Shown: positions 33,390-42,912 of the stretch, piece after piece
Layout of the letters: the number at the start of each line of letters is the position of its first letter
Position numbering within the stretch: the stretch's first letter is position 1
Source of the DNA: Cytophagales bacterium
GTDB taxonomy: Bacteria > Bacteroidota > Bacteroidia > Cytophagales > Microscillaceae
Assembly: GCA_013298075.1 (NCBI GenBank)
Contig: JAAFJG010000041.1
Span: 1-43,066, forward strand
Direction: 5' to 3'
Length of the DNA: 43,066 nucleotides
The notes under the pieces: model-generated
What the model saw: only the letters and a program-made list of their open reading frames with translations
Told to the model about the DNA's origin: nothing
Databases searched by the model: none
Position numbers and translations under genes: made by a program

Positions 33390-34604
33390 TTATTTTTCTT
33401 GCATATAACCATAACCTACTGCTGTTTTTGCGCCTATGCCATGATTTTCGAGGGCATCTTTGAACCATTCCACTATATTTTTTTTATCAATTTTTAAATT
33501 CAAATCATTTTCATTTTTTGCACCTACCAAAAACTGAAAACTTGTATTTTGAACTGTTAAGAAATTAATAATATTGGGCGTACTCCAATCTGCAGGCGGT
33601 TTTACATTTGTATATTTTCCATTAGCATCTTTTTCTTGAGAATTATAATATTCTTTGTAATGCACATTCATAATATCCAAACTAATATGTATTTTATCGG
33701 TTGGAAAAGCATCAAAAAATGTTATTTTGCCTTCTTTATCTGCTTTATAATGGCTTGTTTTTTTTATTTTCTTTTTATTTTGTATAATTTCGTGTTCTTT
33801 GGAACAACCAAAAATATCGCAAAAATCTTTACACGAAATAGCCTCATCTTCTTTGTCACCAAACACTTCTGTAATAATCCAACTTCTTACAACACCTTTT
33901 AAACTGCTTGCAGGAATATAAGGAATCCCATAAATATGATGCAAAGTAATAGAAGTTTCATACACAGACGCACCACCAAGACCCAAAGCCATACGCCAAT
34001 CAGGTTTTAAACAAATAGAATTTACATTTTTTTCACCTAAAAGTGCTTTTGCGTTGTTAATGTGGCGTTCTTTTAATGATTTTAAATCAATTCCTGAAAA
34101 ATTAAAATTTTCAAGTTTTAATCTCCTTTCGCCCAATTGTTTGTTTTTCAAGCCTATTTTATCAAAAAGTTTTTTAGGCTCTTCTTTGTCATATAGATTA
34201 TTTGGTTTATTTTTATCTTGTGTATAAAGATTGCCTATTTCTTTATGATGTGGTTTGTTTAAAAACAAATAAAAATTTGCGTCCATTGGCATATTTTGAA
34301 ATACAACATTAGAATTTTCGATTATACTTTCTTGTTTTTTTTCAGTTCTCAGAGGAGACTGATTTTGTACTTCTTCTCTTATATTTTGTTGAATAGGTTG
34401 AGTAACTTTTTCAAGAGAAATAAGTTTTACAATTTTATTTGCTTCCAACTCTATTTCAAAAGATGCTTTGTTAGGGAAACTATTTTCAGTAAATCCAAAT
34501 TGGGAAACTGTTTCTAATGAAAAAGATATTTCTTTACTTTCTCCTGAAACTTTAAATGTCCCATTTTTGGATTGTTTATCAAAAAATTTTACTTGTACTT
34601 TCAT
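33390..34604 (-). CDS. cmr6: Type III-B CRISPR RAMP protein Cmr6
   Basis: A 404-residue subunit that caps the Cmr effector backbone near the 3' end of the crRNA. The RAMP core is in the second half: IPASSLKGVVRSWI (the SLKG...R motif), a Cys-bearing FCDIFGCSKE, then KITFFDAFPTD, and the glycine-rich loop ENHGIGAKTAVGYGYM at the C-terminus. About 170 residues precede the core: a beta-rich N-terminal piece (about 1-70, FFDKQSKNGTFKVSGESKEISF) and a low-complexity linker. This is longer than many Cmr6 proteins. It is the last gene of the operon and starts 3 nt after the cmr5 stop. Confidence 0.95.
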   Translation of the reverse strand: MKVQVKFFDKQSKNGTFKVSGESKEISFSLETVSQFGFTENSFPNKASFEIELEANKIVKLISLEKVTQPIQQNIREEVQNQSPLRTEKKQESIIENSNVVFQNMPMDANFYLFLNKPHHKEIGNLYTQDKNKPNNLYDKEEPKKLFDKIGLKNKQLGERRLKLENFNFSGIDLKSLKERHINNAKALLGEKNVNSICLKPDWRMALGLGGASVYETSITLHHIYGIPYIPASSLKGVVRSWIITEVFGDKEDEAISCKDFCDIFGCSKEHEIIQNKKKIKKTSHYKADKEGKITFFDAFPTDKIHISLDIMNVHYKEYYNSQEKDANGKYTNVKPPADWSTPNIINFLTVQNTSFQFLVGAKNENDLNLKIDKKNIVEWFKDALENHGIGAKTAVGYGYMQEK

Positions 34605-34607
34605 ATT

Positions 34608-35006
34608 TTAGTCCTCCTTTTCTTCTTTTACGAAACGTTTTAAACATTTGAATAAAGACAAAGTTTCCAAAGTGAGAAATCTAATTTCGCTATCACTTTT
34701 TTTAAATAATTCCTCCATAAACTTAGGAATAGTAACATTTGGCATCATTTTATGGTCATTTTCTGACGTTTTACAATGCCATTCCCAAATATCTTGGAAA
34801 ACTAATTCCGCATCATTTTTTACACCTTTTTCATCTACTTTTCTTTTAGAATCCAAAAAAGCAAGTGTATAAAGAAGTCCATTTGTTTGTATGTAAGCAG
34901 GAATTTTTTTTATAAGACTATCATAATTTGTACTATTTTTCTCTTTACGAGTGGCTTGTTTCTGTGCAAAAATCAACCTTTTTTGTTCTAAATTTTGTAT
35001 TGACAT
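34608..35006 (-). CDS. cmr5: Type III-B CRISPR small subunit Cmr5
   Basis: A 132-residue helical small subunit that packs along the Cmr backbone and contacts target RNA. I choose the ATG at 35006 (MSIQNLEQKRLIFAQKQA), which starts the family-typical N-terminus. An upstream in-frame ATG at 35066 would overlap cmr4 by about 56 nt. Signature: SLIKKIPAYIQTNGLLYTLAFLDSKRK, matching the Cmr5 Pro-x-x-I-x-x-NGL-x-x-x-LAF motif. Spacing is 4 nt to cmr4 and 3 nt to cmr6, so translation is probably coupled. Confidence 0.95.
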   Translation of the reverse strand: MSIQNLEQKRLIFAQKQATRKEKNSTNYDSLIKKIPAYIQTNGLLYTLAFLDSKRKVDEKGVKNDAELVFQDIWEWHCKTSENDHKMMPNVTIPKFMEELFKKSDSEIRFLTLETLSLFKCLKRFVKEEKED

Positions 35007-35010
35007 AGTT

Positions 35011-35994
35011 TTAAAGTTGGTTTTTAAAGAGTTTAACAATTCCTTTTCCAAGTGTGCTGCTGCCACCTATTTGCATTACGTCTTTTACCTTATCTTTGAA
35101 GAAAGAAATTACTTGTTCATCAGTTTCAAGTGTTAAAGTAGGAAAATCTTTTTTTCTTTTATCCTTACCTTCTTTGGTTTGAAAAACATTACTTGTTGCC
35201 ACAATCGTATAAAGATAACTTTCTGCGGGCAAATATTCCTCTGTAAATAATGCACCTGCTTGCACTGTGCCTGTAGCATTGTCTATTTTAGTGCGTGTAA
35301 TTACTTCGGTAGAAAGACGTGTAAAATCACGAAAAACATCATTGGGAAGAATAACTAAAGGGCTTTGTAATTCTCCGTTTCTCAAACCTAAAAACGCTTC
35401 GAGTTGTTTGGCTAATGTGTTTGCTAAGGTATTATTAGCATCGCTTTCTAACGAAAAAGCATATTCTTCTAAAATTACTTTGCCATTCATTGCTAAAAAT
35501 GATTTGTCTGCCACCGCAATTTTATCACTTGCTACTTCAATTTTTGCGTTAATAGAATTAATAGCAGGAATGCAAACATGATTCATTTCTTTTACAAACT
35601 TTTCAATAATCAAGGGACAGGTTGCCAAAGCATACACACCTTTGAAAGATTTGATGGGAAACAAAAGCAAACGAGCATCTGTAAAAGCCAAAGAACCAGA
35701 ATAGTCTTTTTCTTCTGATTTATCAAAAAAATCCTTTATGTCTTGATGAAAATACTTCTCGCCATCATTATCATATCCAAAAACTAAATGAACGCCAATT
35801 TTTTCCTGATTAGTATTTATGTTCTGTTCCAAGTTTTGCCTAAAAGCCCCTTTTAATCCTGAACTTTGGATATTGGGTAAGTCGGTATGTTTTTCACGTT
35901 GGATAGGCAAATCAATATGCCCCAAATCACTCCCGCTACCTGCGTGTAAGGGCGTTTCTGTGCGAAAAAACAAAGGTTTTGCAATTTTATACAT
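35011..35994 (-). CDS. cmr4: Type III-B CRISPR RAMP protein Cmr4 (backbone, target-RNA nuclease)
   Basis: A 327-residue backbone subunit present in several copies per complex; each copy cuts target RNA at 6-nt spacing. The N-terminus PLFFRTETPLHAGSGSDLGHIDLPIQREKHTDLPNIQSSGLKGAFR holds the catalytic Asp position (D28 in GHIDLPIQRE) and the SGLKGAFR RAMP motif. The thumb region follows, and the C-terminus has VMQIGGSSTLGKGIVKL, the glycine-rich loop. All expected parts are present, so RNA cleavage is likely intact. It follows a 332-nt gap carrying four palindromes. Three tandem AATTTTTT units (36015-36038, plus strand) lie 20-45 nt upstream of its ATG. Confidence 0.96.
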   Translation of the reverse strand: MYKIAKPLFFRTETPLHAGSGSDLGHIDLPIQREKHTDLPNIQSSGLKGAFRQNLEQNINTNQEKIGVHLVFGYDNDGEKYFHQDIKDFFDKSEEKDYSGSLAFTDARLLLFPIKSFKGVYALATCPLIIEKFVKEMNHVCIPAINSINAKIEVASDKIAVADKSFLAMNGKVILEEYAFSLESDANNTLANTLAKQLEAFLGLRNGELQSPLVILPNDVFRDFTRLSTEVITRTKIDNATGTVQAGALFTEEYLPAESYLYTIVATSNVFQTKEGKDKRKKDFPTLTLETDEQVISFFKDKVKDVMQIGGSSTLGKGIVKLFKNQL

Positions 35995-36040: not shown

Positions 36041-36326
36041 AGTCAATTTTGAACGCAGTGCGTTCAAATTACATTTATTTAATTTGAATTATCTAAATCA
36101 ATTCTTGACGCAGTGCGTCAAAAATTAAGTTTATTATTTTACAAGTTTCAATTTTGTAGATATTTTTTATTTTTAATTGAATTAGCCAAATCAATTCGTG
36201 ACGCAGTGCGTCACGAATTGATTTTAATTATTTTATAAATTTCAATTTGCAAACATTTTTTATTTCATTTTTAATTAAATTTGTCCAACTCAATTCGTCA
36301 CGCAGTGCGTGACGAATTGAGTTTAA
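36041..36326 (-). repeat. Tandem palindrome repeats between the CARF gene and cmr4
   Basis: Four palindromes share the core CGCAGTGCG, with centres at 36058, 36113, 36206 and 36305. The last two are perfect with 18-bp arms around one unpaired base (36188-36224 and 36287-36323). The second has arms of about 13 bp with one mismatch and the first about 10 bp. The AT-rich sequence between them is also repeated with a period of 93-99 nt. It includes copies of the CARF gene's last codons and stop (AAATTTGTAAAATAATTAAA-like). Arm bases differ between copies but pairing is kept. Not a CRISPR array: unit and spacing do not fit and the flanks are not unique spacers. Confidence 0.93.
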
Positions 36327-37541
36327 TTATTTTACAAATTTCATTTTTCTTGGTTTGGTATTTTGAATTATTTTTTCCTTTAAACTATCATTGAATTGAT
36401 TATTTTTAAAATAATTGTGGTGTTCTTTATAATCTGATTCATTTTCAAAAGTTTTATAAATAAATATTTTTTGGTTATCCTCAAAAAAATAAATTCTTTT
36501 TGTATCAGAATATTTTTTATATACTTTATGAGTATCTTCCCAAATTATGTGAGTATCTCTTTGATTTTGATAGCAAAAAATTGTGCTTAAAATTCTTTGA
36601 ATATCGCTTTGATTTTGAATTCCATCCCAAACATCATCAGAAGCATAAAAAATAAAAAAATTACTTTTATATCTATTCCATAAAGCATCCCCAAGATAAT
36701 TAAACATAAAATTACCTTGAATATCAATCTCGAAGCAACTCTCTAAATCAGTTACAAGTTGATAATGGTCATTTTTATTAAGTATTTCGTTTTCAATTTT
36801 TGATAGAATTTCCCAATGTTTTTCAAATATTTCTTCATTTAATTGGATAGGAATTTGTGGTATTGTGATTAAAACTCCTGTATTTTCAAAAATATACTTT
36901 ATTTGAGATTTGTTCACTTGCCCTAAAATAGTAAGATACGGAATAATACCTTTGTAACCACCTGTAACATTTAGTATTACATCACTAAATTGTTCTGATA
37001 AAATATTATTGCCTGCAATTTGATAATATCTTGTATTTAAGTTTATTAAACCTTGTTTAAAGTTATTTATATTATCAATTTGTAAATACTCTATAATATC
37101 TTGTTTTTTATTAAAATAAATAGTAATATTATTATTTTTATAATCATCAAACCAATTTTTGATTAATTGTGCTGATAAAACAGACAAAACAGTATCAGTA
37201 GTCAATAAATAAACATCAAAATCTTGGCTTGGATTTTCAGCAATAATGGCTAAAATACTTTCAATTTCTGCACAAGCATATTTATTCAAACCCTCTTGCA
37301 AAGTCCATTTTTTATCTTTTTTTGTGATACCTTTTAACCATAAATTATTGATAGTTTTGGTTATTTTTTCTTCCTCTCCCCCTTCATTATCATATTCACT
37401 CGCATTTTTTCGATTATCTCGCAATTCCTCATATTCTGTGTGTATTGGAGTATATTTATTTTTTCCTAACACATCTTCTACTTTTTTATTATTATAATTT
37501 TCAAAAAGTGAAGTTCCAACGGTTGTAATAATAGTTTTCAT
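36327..37541 (-). CDS. CARF-domain ancillary effector with RelE-like C-terminal domain
   Basis: A 404-residue protein. The N-terminal CARF domain (about 1-232) has the two ligand-binding motifs: TTVGTSL (6-12) and NVTGGYKG (191-198). It is expected to bind cyclic oligoadenylate made by Cas10. A helical linker follows. The C-terminus (about 290-385) does not contain the HEPN motif RxxxxH of Csm6/Csx1. Its order of strand SNFFIFYASDDVW, helix QSDIQRILSTIF, strands KRIYFFEDNQKIFIYKTFE and tail DYKEHHNYF resembles the RelE/HigB mRNA-interferase fold, as in CARF-RelE effectors (Cami1 type). CARF call firm, RelE call tentative. It sits between cmr3 (33 nt upstream) and the palindrome spacer. Its stop codon abuts the fourth palindrome. 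Confidence 0.9.
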   Translation of the reverse strand: MKTIITTVGTSLFENYNNKKVEDVLGKNKYTPIHTEYEELRDNRKNASEYDNEGGEEEKITKTINNLWLKGITKKDKKWTLQEGLNKYACAEIESILAIIAENPSQDFDVYLLTTDTVLSVLSAQLIKNWFDDYKNNNITIYFNKKQDIIEYLQIDNINNFKQGLINLNTRYYQIAGNNILSEQFSDVILNVTGGYKGIIPYLTILGQVNKSQIKYIFENTGVLITIPQIPIQLNEEIFEKHWEILSKIENEILNKNDHYQLVTDLESCFEIDIQGNFMFNYLGDALWNRYKSNFFIFYASDDVWDGIQNQSDIQRILSTIFCYQNQRDTHIIWEDTHKVYKKYSDTKRIYFFEDNQKIFIYKTFENESDYKEHHNYFKNNQFNDSLKEKIIQNTKPRKMKFVK

Positions 37542-37574: not shown

Positions 37575-38669
37575 TTAAATTTTTGCTATATAAGCAATGC
37601 CAAAACCTTCTTTTTGGCTTTGTTGATTTTCAGAAATACCATTTGTTTGCAATTCGTTTAATAAATCTTGTAAATTACCCGATTTCAAACGATAGTAATA
37701 CACACTTCCCGCAGGTACTGCTTTTTGCATAGGTTTAGGTTCCCTTTTTTGCATATCAAAACCACCTACATTTAAGTATTTGCCCACTGCACACGTCAAT
37801 AATTCTACTTCTACATTTGCATTTTTGAATATTTGAGTTGGATAGTAACCATTATCAAAAATAGCAGGCGTAGATAAATATATTTTAAATTCTTTTTCCA
37901 AATTTTGAGGAATTGGTAATTTTTCTATGCTAATTTTTTCAAAAGTTGCTAATTTATTTTCAGCACCCAAACGCAATAAGCCTTTTTCTGCGAAATCATC
38001 TAAACCTTCAAATTCTATACAAATTTTTATATCATTTGGACGCAACATATTTACACGATAAAGTTTTCCTTCTTCTGTGGTGTGTGTTTCATTTTGGCGA
38101 CCAATACCCATTTTAGATTCTATTTTATAAGCGTCAGAAATTTTGGTCGCTTGAATAGCACTTTTAATTTTGCCTTTTAAATAATTATTGATAGACGCAT
38201 CAGTAATAACGCCATCTTCGATATTTTCTACATCTTCCACACAACTCAATAATTTTTCATTTTGATATGCAAAATCATTAAGATGACTTGATATTTTTTC
38301 TATTTGAGTAGCAAGTTTTGTATCAAAACTATTATACTTTTCAGCATATTTTTTTGTATCTTCGTTTAAATCAGTTTCCATAACCAAATCCAAAGGAATA
38401 GGATAGGATAAATCAGTTGGTGTGTTTCTACTATCTCTTAATTTAGTAGTAACTTTATAAGCAATCTGCTTAATCCTCAAATTTTCCGTTTTTCCTATAA
38501 TTTCATCAATAGGAATGTTTTTTTGTGCCATATACGCAGTACGCAACGCACCATATAATACGCTTGGCAAAGGCGGAAACATACCATTTGCCCAAGTATC
38601 ATCACCCATACTAAAAGGTTTGCCATCTCTAAAAAATAGCGTGTCTAAGGCTTCAATTTCTATAGTCAT
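37575..38669 (-). CDS. cmr3: Type III-B CRISPR RAMP protein Cmr3
   Basis: A 364-residue Cmr subunit that binds the crRNA 5' tag together with Cas10. The N-terminus EIEALDTLFFRDGKPFSMGDDTWANGMFPPLPSVLYGALRTAY is the Cmr3 signature. The C-terminus has VGGFDMQKREPKPMQKAVPAGSVYYYRL and ends near NQQSQKEGFGIAYIAKI, the glycine loop. Normal length. 23 nt separate it from cas10 and 33 nt from the CARF gene. Confidence 0.96.
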   Translation of the reverse strand: MTIEIEALDTLFFRDGKPFSMGDDTWANGMFPPLPSVLYGALRTAYMAQKNIPIDEIIGKTENLRIKQIAYKVTTKLRDSRNTPTDLSYPIPLDLVMETDLNEDTKKYAEKYNSFDTKLATQIEKISSHLNDFAYQNEKLLSCVEDVENIEDGVITDASINNYLKGKIKSAIQATKISDAYKIESKMGIGRQNETHTTEEGKLYRVNMLRPNDIKICIEFEGLDDFAEKGLLRLGAENKLATFEKISIEKLPIPQNLEKEFKIYLSTPAIFDNGYYPTQIFKNANVEVELLTCAVGKYLNVGGFDMQKREPKPMQKAVPAGSVYYYRLKSGNLQDLLNELQTNGISENQQSQKEGFGIAYIAKI

Positions 38670-38692: not shown

Positions 38693-40537
38693 TTAATTTT
38701 TATCTTTATTTAAGTGCCTACTGATAAATTCGCAAATATGTAAGGCGTTTAAAAAGTTTTGTACATTCAAATCAAAAGCACAATGATTGAGATAAAGAGC
38801 ATTTAGTTTGCTACAAAAATCGTTATCAATACTTTTTTCTTCTGTTTTTGCTCTTTTGACAAAACGCACTAATTCATGTTCAAAAATTTTATTTAAGCCA
38901 TCTATATTTTGGTTATTTTCTCCCCAACCGCCATTTTTATCTAATAATTTTGCAAATTCACTACTCAAATTGCTAATAAAATTATCAGAAATATCTTTGT
39001 TTTTGAGGTGATTGGTAAGGTTTTTTAATGTTTCGGTACTCCAATGGCAATTATTATCTGTCCATCTAAACATTGTATCGTGGATTTCGCCTGAATGTTT
39101 TAGAACAGCCATAGCAAAAGCATCTTTTTTAAGTTCATTATCATTTTTGTTTTCTACTTTTTTTGCTTTTTTCTCCATTATTCTTGCATAATTCAATACT
39201 TCAGAAAGTGGCGTTTTGTAGTGTGCGATTGCTATGCCTGCGGAAAAAGTAAGTTTTTTCAGACGTTCAGGCAGATGTGTATTTACCTCTAAATTAAACA
39301 TTTCTCTTAGTTTTTGCATAGCCTCAAACAAATGATTTAAGTTCAGAAAACCTAAAAAATCATCTCCACCTGCATAAATTGTTTGACCCAATTTATTATT
39401 ATCTATGTACTTTGTAGCACTTTTACCATATTTACCTAAGAGTTCAGAAAGTTTTTTGTGTTCTTCTTTGGTTTTACATTCTGCTAATTTATCACCCATT
39501 CCATCAGCATCAAAAACGAGGATTGCGTAGTATTTACATTTTAGTTCTTTTTTAAGTTTATCAATATATTTTTTTGCTAATTTTTTTTGACTTTCAACTG
39601 GAAAATTCTTTTCAGTTATGCTATCATCATAAAGCATTTGATGGTCAAAATGCGTATTTAACCTTTTATCATTAGAAATATTTAGTTCTATTTTTTCTTT
39701 CAAACATTTTGAGACAAATTCATTTTGATTAAAAACAGAAGTTTTATACTCTTCAAAACAATCTTTCATTTCTGGGCTTAATTTTTCAATATCATACATC
39801 AAAGCAATCTCAGCCACAGAAGGAAACGCCTCAGATACTGGAAAAAATCTTTTGAGCATTGAAATAGCACATAATCCTTCTCCCTCTTGTAATTCCGCTT
39901 GTGATACTGTTTTATAATCTTGTTTGCTATTCAAAACCAAAACGTCACGATTAAATAATTTTTTATCATATAGTCTATCATTTTTTTGTTCTTTATCACC
40001 CAAACGATAAAACTTCACATTATACTCGCCATTCAAAGCACATTTACGCCCTGTTTCTTGTAATTGATTAAAATAACGAATATTTTTAGTTGCCCCTAAA
40101 TATTTTTCTGCTTGTTTGATTTTAATTGGATAATCTATGATTTCACCTTTTTCATCAAGTTTTACTTCGTGTGCCACCCAATAGATTTTTAGAAAATCAT
40201 TGAGTTGTAAAATGCTATCTGGTTGCAATTCAATTACTTTTTTACCTAAATTTTTGATAAAATAACATTCTGTAGCGGTTTTTACTTTATTTCCGATTTC
40301 TTGAATAGAGTTTTCATCTGCAGTAACAATCGCACTAAAACGATTGGGTTTTGATTCTGAATCTTCAGTAGGAAAGATAAAATTTACATCTGGGCATAAA
40401 TGTTTTAGATTATGCATTGCTTCTTTTATCAACACAGACAAAATACGACTTCCTGCATACAAATCTTGTGTTTTGCGTGCTTGGGCAATAAAGGACTGAA
40501 CAGGTCCGATGGTAAAAAGGAATAAATAATGGCTCAT
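38693..40537 (-). CDS. cas10: Cas10/Cmr2 large subunit (cyclic oligoadenylate synthase), no HD domain
   Basis: A 614-residue type III signature protein. It starts directly with the Palm1-type segment LFLFTIGPVQSFIAQARKTQDLYAGSRILS; the HD nuclease domain that precedes this in many Cas10 proteins is absent. The zinc-finger region is degenerate: CALN at 166-169 and CAIS at 223-226 stand where CxxC pairs are expected. Palm2 has FDADGMGDKL (342-351) and the cyclase motif GGDD (390-393), intact. The C-terminal helical domain (about 480-610) is complete. Expected activity: target-RNA-triggered cyclic oligoadenylate synthesis, but no Cas10 DNase activity. 6 nt separate it from the upstream PD-(D/E)XK-like gene. 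Confidence 0.96.
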   Translation of the reverse strand: MSHYLFLFTIGPVQSFIAQARKTQDLYAGSRILSVLIKEAMHNLKHLCPDVNFIFPTEDSESKPNRFSAIVTADENSIQEIGNKVKTATECYFIKNLGKKVIELQPDSILQLNDFLKIYWVAHEVKLDEKGEIIDYPIKIKQAEKYLGATKNIRYFNQLQETGRKCALNGEYNVKFYRLGDKEQKNDRLYDKKLFNRDVLVLNSKQDYKTVSQAELQEGEGLCAISMLKRFFPVSEAFPSVAEIALMYDIEKLSPEMKDCFEEYKTSVFNQNEFVSKCLKEKIELNISNDKRLNTHFDHQMLYDDSITEKNFPVESQKKLAKKYIDKLKKELKCKYYAILVFDADGMGDKLAECKTKEEHKKLSELLGKYGKSATKYIDNNKLGQTIYAGGDDFLGFLNLNHLFEAMQKLREMFNLEVNTHLPERLKKLTFSAGIAIAHYKTPLSEVLNYARIMEKKAKKVENKNDNELKKDAFAMAVLKHSGEIHDTMFRWTDNNCHWSTETLKNLTNHLKNKDISDNFISNLSSEFAKLLDKNGGWGENNQNIDGLNKIFEHELVRFVKRAKTEEKSIDNDFCSKLNALYLNHCAFDLNVQNFLNALHICEFISRHLNKDKN

Positions 40538-40543
40538 TTTTGT

Positions 40544-41170
40544 TTATATTAATGTTTTGATATTATTGAGAATAGCAAATACGGTATAAAGTTTATCTAA
40601 TTCTGTTACGTTATAATTTAGAGTAGTTTGGAATTTTTTACCATCTAAAACGATAAAATACCAATCTTTGCCCACAATATAACAACCATATAAAACCTTA
40701 TTTGGGTCTTTATTTTGGTGTTGTGCGACAATCATAGCCGCCAATAACTGCCCCAAAGGATCAGCATCTGTCCCTTGTTCTTTTTTATATTCGTGCAAAA
40801 AGAAAAATGGTTCTCTTGGTGTTTGTTTGCCTGATGCCAACATCCATTCTACTATTCCAGAGAGTTCTACATTATCGATTTTCATTTTTAAAGGTCTTTG
40901 CGAAAATGGGTGATATTTTTCAGCATCATTAAAATCTATCAAAAAAAGTATAGGCGAAATAAATTGCATTTTGAGTTCGTCTTCATTCCAATTCCAAAAA
41001 TTATCTAAAAATAATTCGTGTAATCGACGGACTTGCTTATCAATCATTTCATCAAGTTTTGAAACTTTAACCTCAATTAAAGCCGATAAACTTTCCAATT
41101 TTTTTGCTCTCTCCAAACCAAACCAAATGGTAAGGTCTTCCCACATACATTTTTCAAAAGTTTTTTTCAT
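40544..41170 (-). CDS. Uncharacterised PD-(D/E)XK-like protein embedded in the cmr operon
   Basis: A 208-residue protein of no named family I recognise. Pattern suggests a restriction-endonuclease-like fold: acidic helix segment NEDELKMQFISPILFLIDF (62-80, like the HsdR N-terminal entry), acidic residue in LSGIVEWM (E108), then FFFLHEYKKEQG with E127-Y-K129, then a helix GQLLAAMIVAQ (Q141). The spacing fits a D/E...ExK nuclease core followed by a Gln helix. The N-terminal 55 residues are helical. It lies between cmr1 (4 nt upstream) and cas10 (6 nt downstream), so it is translated from the same mRNA. Inference: a nuclease or accessory factor of the Cmr complex. It could instead be an inactive structural relative. 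Confidence 0.85.
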   Translation of the reverse strand: MKKTFEKCMWEDLTIWFGLERAKKLESLSALIEVKVSKLDEMIDKQVRRLHELFLDNFWNWNEDELKMQFISPILFLIDFNDAEKYHPFSQRPLKMKIDNVELSGIVEWMLASGKQTPREPFFFLHEYKKEQGTDADPLGQLLAAMIVAQHQNKDPNKVLYGCYIVGKDWYFIVLDGKKFQTTLNYNVTELDKLYTVFAILNNIKTLI

Positions 41171-41174
41171 TAGA

Positions 41175-42143
41175 TTATTCGTTTTTTTTAAAAGTAAAAT
41201 TTACAAAAAAATCATCATTTTTGTCTTTTGCATCATCAATAAGTTGATTAAAAGACAACATAACTTTTTTCCATTTTGAATTATACTTTTGAATATCACT
41301 ATCATTTAGGGCTTCATTATTTAGACTTTTGTAAAATTTCATATAATCATAAGGTAAATAAGTTATCACATATATTATATTATCGTCTATTTTCGTTAAA
41401 GACATTAGATGTAACTTTGAATGTCTTGCTGGAATAGGCACAGTTTTGTAAGGTGCAGCAATATACTTTCTATCATCTTTAGGATTAATACCTTTTTTAG
41501 CAATATCAGCATATACATTTTTTAGTTCACTAATAGCATCTTGCCAATTATCAAAAAACTTTTGAGACTGATAAATTTCAGTTTTATTTGTTATTGCTGT
41601 AAAAAAAGGGGGTTTATCGTTTTTAAAATTTTCATACTTTATAATAGTTTCAAAATTATTCGTTTGTTCACATGTAAACGCACCAAAACCATTACGACTT
41701 TTTGCTCCAAGTCCTCCTAAGTGTGTTAATAAAGAAAAACTTTTTATTAACTCATTTTTTATTTCTAAATATTTATCTTTATTCTGTTCATTGATAGTGA
41801 AAATAATATTAAATTTTGTGCCAATATCAAAATATAGTCTTTCTTCTACACCATAAGCCATATATGTCAAAGATTGGTTTCTAAGTGATTTTATATATTT
41901 TTTAGATAAATTATTATTCAACATTTTAACCCTAATCAAAACCTTACTCCTCCCATCAGTCCCTCCAAAAATCTCATCTTCTTTCGTTTTAAGGTCTTCG
42001 AGAGATAAATGCCCATTCATAGCACGCCACCAAAAACGTAAAGCCCCTTTGATGCTCGGAGGACGTAATTCGGGAGTAACACCATCTGCTCCTGATAAGA
42101 ACATAGGCGTAATAGTTTCACAAGTAAAAGTTATTTTTTCCAT
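41175..42143 (-). CDS. cmr1: Type III-B CRISPR RAMP protein Cmr1
   Basis: A 322-residue subunit that caps the complex at the 3' end of the crRNA together with Cmr6. The N-terminus MEKITFTCETITPMFLSGADGVTPELRPPSIKGALRFWWRAM is the Cmr1 signature, and GGLGAKSRNGFGAF is the glycine loop. I choose the ATG at 42143 because the family normally starts at this point. An in-frame ATG at 42197 adds 18 residues and would overlap the HNH gene by 8 nt, which is also possible. With 42143 the gap to the HNH stop is 46 nt. It is followed after 4 nt by the PD-(D/E)XK-like gene. Confidence 0.95.
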   Translation of the reverse strand: MEKITFTCETITPMFLSGADGVTPELRPPSIKGALRFWWRAMNGHLSLEDLKTKEDEIFGGTDGRSKVLIRVKMLNNNLSKKYIKSLRNQSLTYMAYGVEERLYFDIGTKFNIIFTINEQNKDKYLEIKNELIKSFSLLTHLGGLGAKSRNGFGAFTCEQTNNFETIIKYENFKNDKPPFFTAITNKTEIYQSQKFFDNWQDAISELKNVYADIAKKGINPKDDRKYIAAPYKTVPIPARHSKLHLMSLTKIDDNIIYVITYLPYDYMKFYKSLNNEALNDSDIQKYNSKWKKVMLSFNQLIDDAKDKNDDFFVNFTFKKNE

Positions 42144-42189
42144 AATTTTAGTTTTTATTTTATCGTTATCAATACATATAAAGTACAAT

Positions 42190-42912
42190 TTATTCATCTT
42201 TTTGGTTTAAGACTTCGCGTTTTATTACACTTTTAATAGCACTACAAAATTCTATAAATTGATTAGATTTATCCTTTTGATATATTTTATCAAGTAATTG
42301 TTTTGCTTCATTTTCTGTGATTAGATTTAAGTTTTCATCATAAACAAAGCCATCAATAGCACTTTTTCGCAACCTATTTAGTTTAGCAATATCTAAATTT
42401 AGTATCTTTATTGTTTGCTCACCTTTTTCACATTTGAAAGATATTTTTCCATTTATTGAAAAATAAAAATGTAATTCTGACAATTTATCCAATGGAGACA
42501 AAGGCAAATCCTTATTATTCTTTTTAGCATCACAATACGATTCTTTAGGTTTAGGGTCTTTTTGTCCACCATTACAAGAAGCGAGTAAGTTTGAGTACTC
42601 AAGAGTTAGTGTTGGATTTGATGACTTATCTTTTAAATGCTCAATAATAGTATTATCGTTATGTTTGATACTCTGATTACAATAACAACAAATAAAACCT
42701 TGTTCATTTAACAAAACTTCTTTTAACTCGTGTTTTGAATAATAAATAAAATATTCTTCTTGCTCATTAATAGAAGGACACGAGCTTGGAAAATATTCCC
42801 AAATATCTGAACCTTTTACGTCTCTACTGATAAATTCATCAAGTTTTTCTTTTTCTTGATTTTTCCAATTTACAAATTCAATAGGCTCTTGTTCTTTTTG
42901 TATATGTTTCAT
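42190..42912 (-). CDS. HNH nuclease of the retron/Septu-associated family (TIGR02646 type)
   Basis: A 240-residue protein. The start MKHIQKEQEPIEFVNWK is typical of the TIGR02646 family. The HNH core is at about 75-131: GFICCYCNQSI (zinc Cys 75/78), IIEHLKDKS (E91, H92), LEYSNLLASCNG (N108, C113) and SYCDAKK (C127). The family is known from retron loci and as the PtuB-type partner of an ATPase in Septu defence. Here it precedes cmr1 on the same strand, within 46 nt or overlapping it, so it is probably the proximal part of the cmr transcript. An upstream gene whose C-terminus ends at 42954 is a candidate for the ATPase. Confidence 0.9.
   Translation of the reverse strand: MKHIQKEQEPIEFVNWKNQEKEKLDEFISRDVKGSDIWEYFPSSCPSINEQEEYFIYYSKHELKEVLLNEQGFICCYCNQSIKHNDNTIIEHLKDKSSNPTLTLEYSNLLASCNGGQKDPKPKESYCDAKKNNKDLPLSPLDKLSELHFYFSINGKISFKCEKGEQTIKILNLDIAKLNRLRKSAIDGFVYDENLNLITENEAKQLLDKIYQKDKSNQFIEFCSAIKSVIKREVLNQKDE

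Follow-up and report, generated by a model that had tools for sequence, protein, structure and literature searches.

Does an unnamed gene lodged between cmr1 and cas10 supply a nuclease to a Cmr complex whose Cas10 lacks an HD nuclease domain? The gene (positions 40544-41170, minus strand) lies in a 43,066-nucleotide stretch of DNA from a Cytophagales bacterium, the whole of which was analyzed and is called the window here. The minus strand carries, in order, a PtuB-like HNH gene (42190-42912; TIGR02646), cmr1 (41175-42197; TIGR01894, 1e-22), the unnamed gene, cas10/cmr2 (38693-40537; TIGR02577, 4.7e-48), cmr3 (37575-38669), a CARF-RelE effector gene that is Cami1-like by architecture (36327-37541; PADLOC CARF7--CARF_RelE, 7.8e-95), cmr4 (35011-35994), cmr5 (34608-35066), and cmr6 (33390-34604), with cmr3 to cmr6 assigned by profile matches. 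The unnamed open reading frame starts with ATG and encodes a single-domain protein of 208 amino acids. As given in the original prediction, 4 nt separate it from cmr1, and 6 nt from cas10; these are not the tightest joints in the operon's first half, as had been claimed, because the HNH gene and cmr1 share 8 nt. Cas10 indeed appears to lack the HD nuclease, as Cmr2_N begins at residue 6 and a motif pattern scan of this protein found no HD[IL]GK motif. Its sole HD pair is at residue 486, and GGDD is present at residue 390.

The protein belongs to a large family. Searching the source genome yielded 33 matches at E <= 1, including the window gene, and 20 of these had E < 1e-24. Alignment split the copies into two sister groups, fam1, which contains the window protein, and fam2. 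For the fam1 tree we used the 88 of 96 family entries with a matched stretch of at least about 190 residues; one row (L010 2987-3618) is a duplicate, leaving 87 distinct proteins, the window protein included. The motifs pointed out in the original prediction are at the positions claimed (NEDELKMQF at residues 62-70, E108 in GIVEWM, E127-Y128-K129, and Q141), and the refuting outcome that it named, an active site that varies among homologues, was not observed. E63, in the WNEDELK helix (codon 40982-40984), and K129 are invariant in all 87. E108, the acidic residue of a G-x-x-(D/E) strand (codon 40847-40849), is D or E in 86 of the 87; E127 of the (D/E)XK motif (E127-Y128-K129, codons 40784-40792) is kept in 86, with one D; and Q141, in a DPxGQ helix (codon 40748-40750), is likewise Q in 86. 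D137 is kept in 82. The CAS-associated PADLOC profile PDLC01472 (PD_DExK), which represents the same superfamily, matched residues 67-201 of the window protein weakly (1.2e-14, 52.4 bits); it fits fam2 far better, with 1.3e-45 and 3.4e-46 (152.8 and 154.7 bits) for two fam2 proteins. One fam1 paralogue narrowly passed the cut-off of 22 bits for PDDEXK_1, at 22.8 bits.

We built two AF2 models from seven sequences each, model 1 for the window protein (pLDDT 80.3, with a spread of 38 to 80 over the five models) and model 2 for a relative from locus L067 (pLDDT 69.6). The alpha-beta-beta-beta-alpha-beta core order is present in model 2 and, except for a low-confidence catalytic strand, in model 1; the catalytic strand formed in model 2 only, and the loop at 110-134 has low pLDDT in model 1. 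Both models matched the nuclease domain of DrdV at Z 8.5-8.9, slightly over 8, the level below which the tool advises caution, and model 1 also matched that of BpuSI. Below these came restriction-endonuclease-like proteins at Z < 8, followed by mixed rows; Cas4 and RecB-type nucleases are among the weak matches of model 1, and unrelated proteins are among the mixed lower rows for model 2. A sequence search of the PDB gave a single match (E 0.63), and a viral fold library gave none at E <= 1e-3. Thus, the structural part of the prediction stood in its core order and DrdV matches, while the catalytic loop was modeled at low confidence. Conserved motifs, the core order in two models, the DrdV matches, the weak PD_DExK match, and the PDDEXK_1 match of a paralogue together support a PD-(D/E)XK core, and the gene likely encodes a single-domain PD-(D/E)XK nuclease with intact active-site residues (hereafter, the PD gene). 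Because of its fold neighbors and the Q141 motif, which we liken to the RecB-type Q, DNA would be the favored substrate; both DNase activity and coupling to Cas10 are what we infer from these features.

The best whole-length fold match was to mammalian mitoribosomal chains '5' and 's', which we take to be mL37 and mL65; the window model reached Z 15.3, with 203 residues aligned at 3.2 A, and the second model Z 11.7. In a Foldseek search of the PDB, only mitoribosome chains, four of them, reached E <= 1e-3; PD-(D/E)XK chains appeared only above 1e-3. These chains are structural ribosomal proteins and share 7-11% identity with the PD protein, but the part of PMC8998825 available to us describes them as repurposed endonucleases. 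As both the window and L067 models gave this type of match, the bacterial family may be a relative of those repurposed endonucleases.

We determined how often the PD gene occurs at Cmr loci. Searching the order for Cas10 identified 16 of 390 genomes with a match and led to 16 Cmr loci in addition to the window. In two of these (L058 and L062), a fam1 gene occupies exactly the space that separates cmr1 from cas10. Using the PD protein as query brought in two more Cmr loci, L067 and L226, both of G770 (UBA2322); in each, the gene is right before cas10. In all, 5 of 19 Cmr loci contain the PD gene, always between cmr1 and cas10, immediately before cas10 and on the same strand, although the stretch from cmr1 to the PD gene in L067 additionally contains an ATPase gene, an HNH gene, and a small ORF. 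The other 14 loci, all with HD-less Cas10, do not carry it: in 11, cmr1 and cas10 are spaced by -4 to 9 nt, and the remaining three have a 125-nt gap (the second locus of L051), extra ORFs (L053), or an ATPase-HNH pair (L054). Since 14 of the 19 Cmr loci are without the gene and the source genome has 20 strong family copies, the PD protein is not an obligate Cmr subunit, which would be expected in nearly all related loci. On a tree of the 19 Cmr Cas10 proteins, the five PD-positive loci require five gains or losses, five of them forced by well-supported branches, and four of the end branches are long. The nearest Cas10 relative of the window (L051, 63% identical) is without the PD gene.

The cmr1-cas10 region holds other cargo. 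PtuAB-like ATPase and HNH pairs recur at or inside it (L226 11157-13363, L067 7159-9636, and L054 10211-12248). In the window, only the HNH gene (42190-42912) is seen, as the contig ends before any ATPase. TIGR02646 matches exceeded the profile's cut-off in the window and in L067 but fell short of it in L226 and L054. These pairs are possibly a second type III-B accessory module.

The family also enters Csm operons. The source genome has its own type III-A locus (Csm1-4 by NCBIfam, and Csm5) in which an HD-less cas10 is preceded by two fam1 genes and a fam2 relative. The two fam1 genes encode the nearest paralogues of the window protein in that genome (61% and 53%). The locus also carries, upstream of cas10, a CARF-HEPN gene and, between it and the PD genes, a gene for a 181-amino-acid protein (L101 9874-10419) with no PADLOC match at E <= 0.001. 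The fam2 gene (L101 8631-9224; PADLOC PD_DExK) is beside cas10, and another fam2 gene (L067 15108-15713; PADLOC PD_DExK) lies between the CARF-RelE gene and cmr4 of a Cmr locus. Thus, both sister families enter type III operons. Neither was found at 19 other Csm loci, several of them on cut contigs; for the Csm locus of G092, the flanks covered were about 1.5 kb.

All eight cas-linked rows of the fam1 tree fall in one 12-row clade (support 100/99), within which Cmr- and Csm-linked copies are interleaved. The cas-linkage label changes four times on this tree compared to a mean of 7.8 after shuffling, and none of 500 shuffles was as low. The hypergeometric enrichment, which ignores relatedness, is 8e-9 on the 87 distinct genes and 6e-8 without the window. 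At the level of genomes, a cas10 match was present in 4 of 5 sampled genomes with a clade member versus 29 of about 385 others (p 2e-4, or 2e-3 when the window's genome is excluded), a comparison that pools samples of 390 and 380 genomes and in which the G009 match is a fragment. Compared with other genomes that have any family member, the p value is 0.05. Linkage to cas10 therefore recurs beyond chance. A partial second copy in L068 was left out of the 88-row tree and lies within the clade in an earlier tree, which dropped six other rows (two fused double copies and four partial ones). Residues K2, W10, P88, W109, K168, D169, and E190 are specific to the clade.

In G129, the Cmr copy alone has a clade-level score, 324 bits, with 224 bits for the runner-up. 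Matches were found in 5 of 395 genomes in a search of the phylum, none of them a new genome at clade-level score, and at E <= 1e-70 in 0 of 8 and 0 of 11 genomes from the families of G130 and G101. Scanning IMG/VR with the clade alignment returned 49 stretches that fit a pattern, none of which encodes a relative.

Could the gene be a passenger, a member of a clade that tends to insert into operons and reaches cmr and csm loci by hitchhiking or defense-island spread, with no role in interference? The large multicopy family includes broken copies in the source genome (L011 and L020), and 4 of the 12 clade members are outside CRISPR loci. Two of these (L114 and L115) occupy a syntenic place between the ribosomal L1/L10 genes and rpoB, one (L126) follows atpB and two further fam1 genes, and one (L066) is beside a gene that we read from its sequence as an M48-like peptidase. 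Three of the four have a same-strand neighbor within 30 nt, and the next gene downstream lies on the same strand no more than 30 nt away in 9 of 12 clade rows versus 13 of 76 other rows (one a duplicate). As clade members generally sit close before the next gene, tight spacing alone is weak evidence of a functional link. These features, and the 14 Cmr loci without the gene, fit a passenger; they also reduce the "dedicated Cmr accessory" of the original prediction, which holds at most for one clade, present in a Csm locus as well. However, slot and orientation are the same in five separate Cas10 lineages and recur in the Csm locus, and the active site is kept. Moreover, G770 has just two fam1 matches at E <= 1e-5, and both are in the slot before cas10 of separate Cmr loci. 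We consider a pure passenger unlikely, if still worth keeping in mind. Random insertion of a single member of a large family was set aside as a full explanation, given the G770 genes and the restriction to one clade.

The place shared by L114 and L115 holds different inserts in two genomes of one genus, with a clade member among them. The L115 inserts include a GTPase and a protein with capP- and PD-Lambda-2_B-like matches. This spot is possibly a hotspot for defense genes.

A model that we regard as having about an even chance of being right is that the PD gene encodes an optional accessory nuclease, from a clade of a multicopy Bacteroidota family that was recruited several times to type III operons, in the slot just before an HD-less, cyclase-bearing cas10, and that degrades nucleic acid. 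The PD protein would be produced along with the effector complex; once target RNA is recognized, it would degrade nucleic acid of the invader (or the host), with DNA as the most likely substrate. This would give a nuclease arm to a system in which the sole output of Cas10 is cyclic oligoadenylate for the CARF-RelE effector. Its activity may be gated by contact with the complex, by cyclic oligoadenylate binding, or by the form of the substrate. In support, five separate Cas10 lineages, and Csm as well as Cmr operons, hold the same-strand gene before cas10. Counting against it, the gene is optional, and all five PD-positive Cmr loci already have a CARF-RelE gene. A narrower proposal, which we find doubtful, is that a stand-alone clade with no recognized CARF or other sensor was captured about five times before cas10 as a replaceable DNase subunit, restoring the DNA cleavage lost by HD-less type III complexes. 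Whether the gene tracks loss of HD is uninformative here, since each of the 19 Cmr Cas10 proteins examined is HD-less. Among full-length Cmr and Csm Cas10 proteins, with HD judged by motif pattern rather than profile, the PD gene is at 6 of 32 HD-less loci (26 negatives) versus 0 of 5 HD-bearing loci (p 0.57), a comparison with no power.

Another possibility is that the nuclease is itself activated by cyclic oligoadenylate: a NucC-like oligomer without a CARF domain would bind the second messenger and then degrade DNA, acting as a second effector beside CARF-RelE. The Cas10 proteins of all five PD-positive Cmr loci keep GGDD, and fused double copies of 434 amino acids (L124 and L087) hint at dimers. 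Pfam, NCBIfam, and PADLOC models detected no CARF domain in the PD protein, while the neighboring CARF-RelE protein matched many PADLOC CARF models. In the available part of one survey of type III loci, NucC is an effector set apart from the CARF families (PMC11229360). In the PD protein's case, NucC is not among the fold matches listed, which counts against this explanation and does not exclude it. Further, most family members are away from cmr/csm genes: 7 of 96 family entries with flanks lie near them, a count in which shortened repeats of one gene at locus ends are included and distant linkage could be missed, as the flanks of many rows outside the clade extend no more than about 1.5 kb. 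On balance, we think activation by cyclic oligoadenylate rather improbable. A ring-nuclease idea by way of Crn4 was dropped, as the section of PMC12830947 at hand describes the Crn4 fold as unrelated to known structures.

A role in adaptation or crRNA processing, in which the protein trims prespacers or crRNA rather than the invader, is suggested by L068, where a tandem pair, its second copy cut by the contig end, lies downstream of cas6, at a distance of about 1.6 kb, on a contig that also carries cas1 and cas2. The weak fold matches to Cas4 and RecB-type nucleases are in keeping with such a role, as is the use of housekeeping nucleases for crRNA maturation by type III-A systems (PMC9762709, in the portion available). 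However, two genes separate the L068 pair from cas6, the other seven linked cases lie in a row of genes leading into cas10 of an effector operon, and a scan of nine proteins of the Cmr block in the window found no cas1, cas2, or cas6. Trimming of prespacers or crRNA is therefore very unlikely.

Returning to the accessory nuclease, several known systems offer comparisons. NucC and Can1/Can2 (Card1) are PD-(D/E)XK nucleases, and the HD domain of Cas10 has an unrelated fold. Nuclease activity for the same complex would come from that domain as well, whereas the PD gene would provide it in trans and is optional. By analogy, the nearest functional precedent for the PD gene is NucC. Like the predicted PD protein, NucC is a stand-alone nuclease without a CARF domain used by type III systems, and the parts of PMC11229360 available to us describe it as a cA3-activated dsDNA nuclease that in rare cases forms a fusion with Cas10 next to a second nucC gene; the PD protein differs in having no sequence match to solved structures. 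Can1 and Can2 (Card1) are also nuclease effectors encoded with type III systems (PMC11229360, same parts), but they have CARF sensor domains, and none was matched in the PD protein. In variant I-E3, a PD-(D/E)xK nuclease is added to the effector complex by fusion to Cas11 (PMC12669027, as far as available); unlike the PD gene, this is a type I system and a gene fusion.

Ancillary nucleases of type III systems are already known as a kind, as is the CAS-associated PD_DExK profile. According to the accessible portion of PMC11229360, 39% of 1113 type III loci have a recognizable HD nuclease in Cas10, and its search for new effectors covered only loci without a known effector. A locus with CARF-RelE, such as this one, would be skipped by that search because of this restriction. 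Among the literature matches listed and in the available parts of PMC11229360, PMC12669027, PMC10910872, PMC8998825, PMC12830947, and PMC9762709, we found no description of the CARF-less clade or of its repeated capture next to HD-less cas10, a statement about these sources and not a claim of absence from print. Found in front of cas10 in both Cmr and Csm operons, the PD gene is a testable and readily overlooked candidate for a nuclease by which HD-less type III systems may cut DNA.

Finally, the window contains three direct copies of a sequence of about 93-99 nt each (36078-36362), with an inner palindrome recognized by eye. They are located between cmr4 and the CARF-RelE gene, and the last copy reaches into the end of the CARF-RelE gene.
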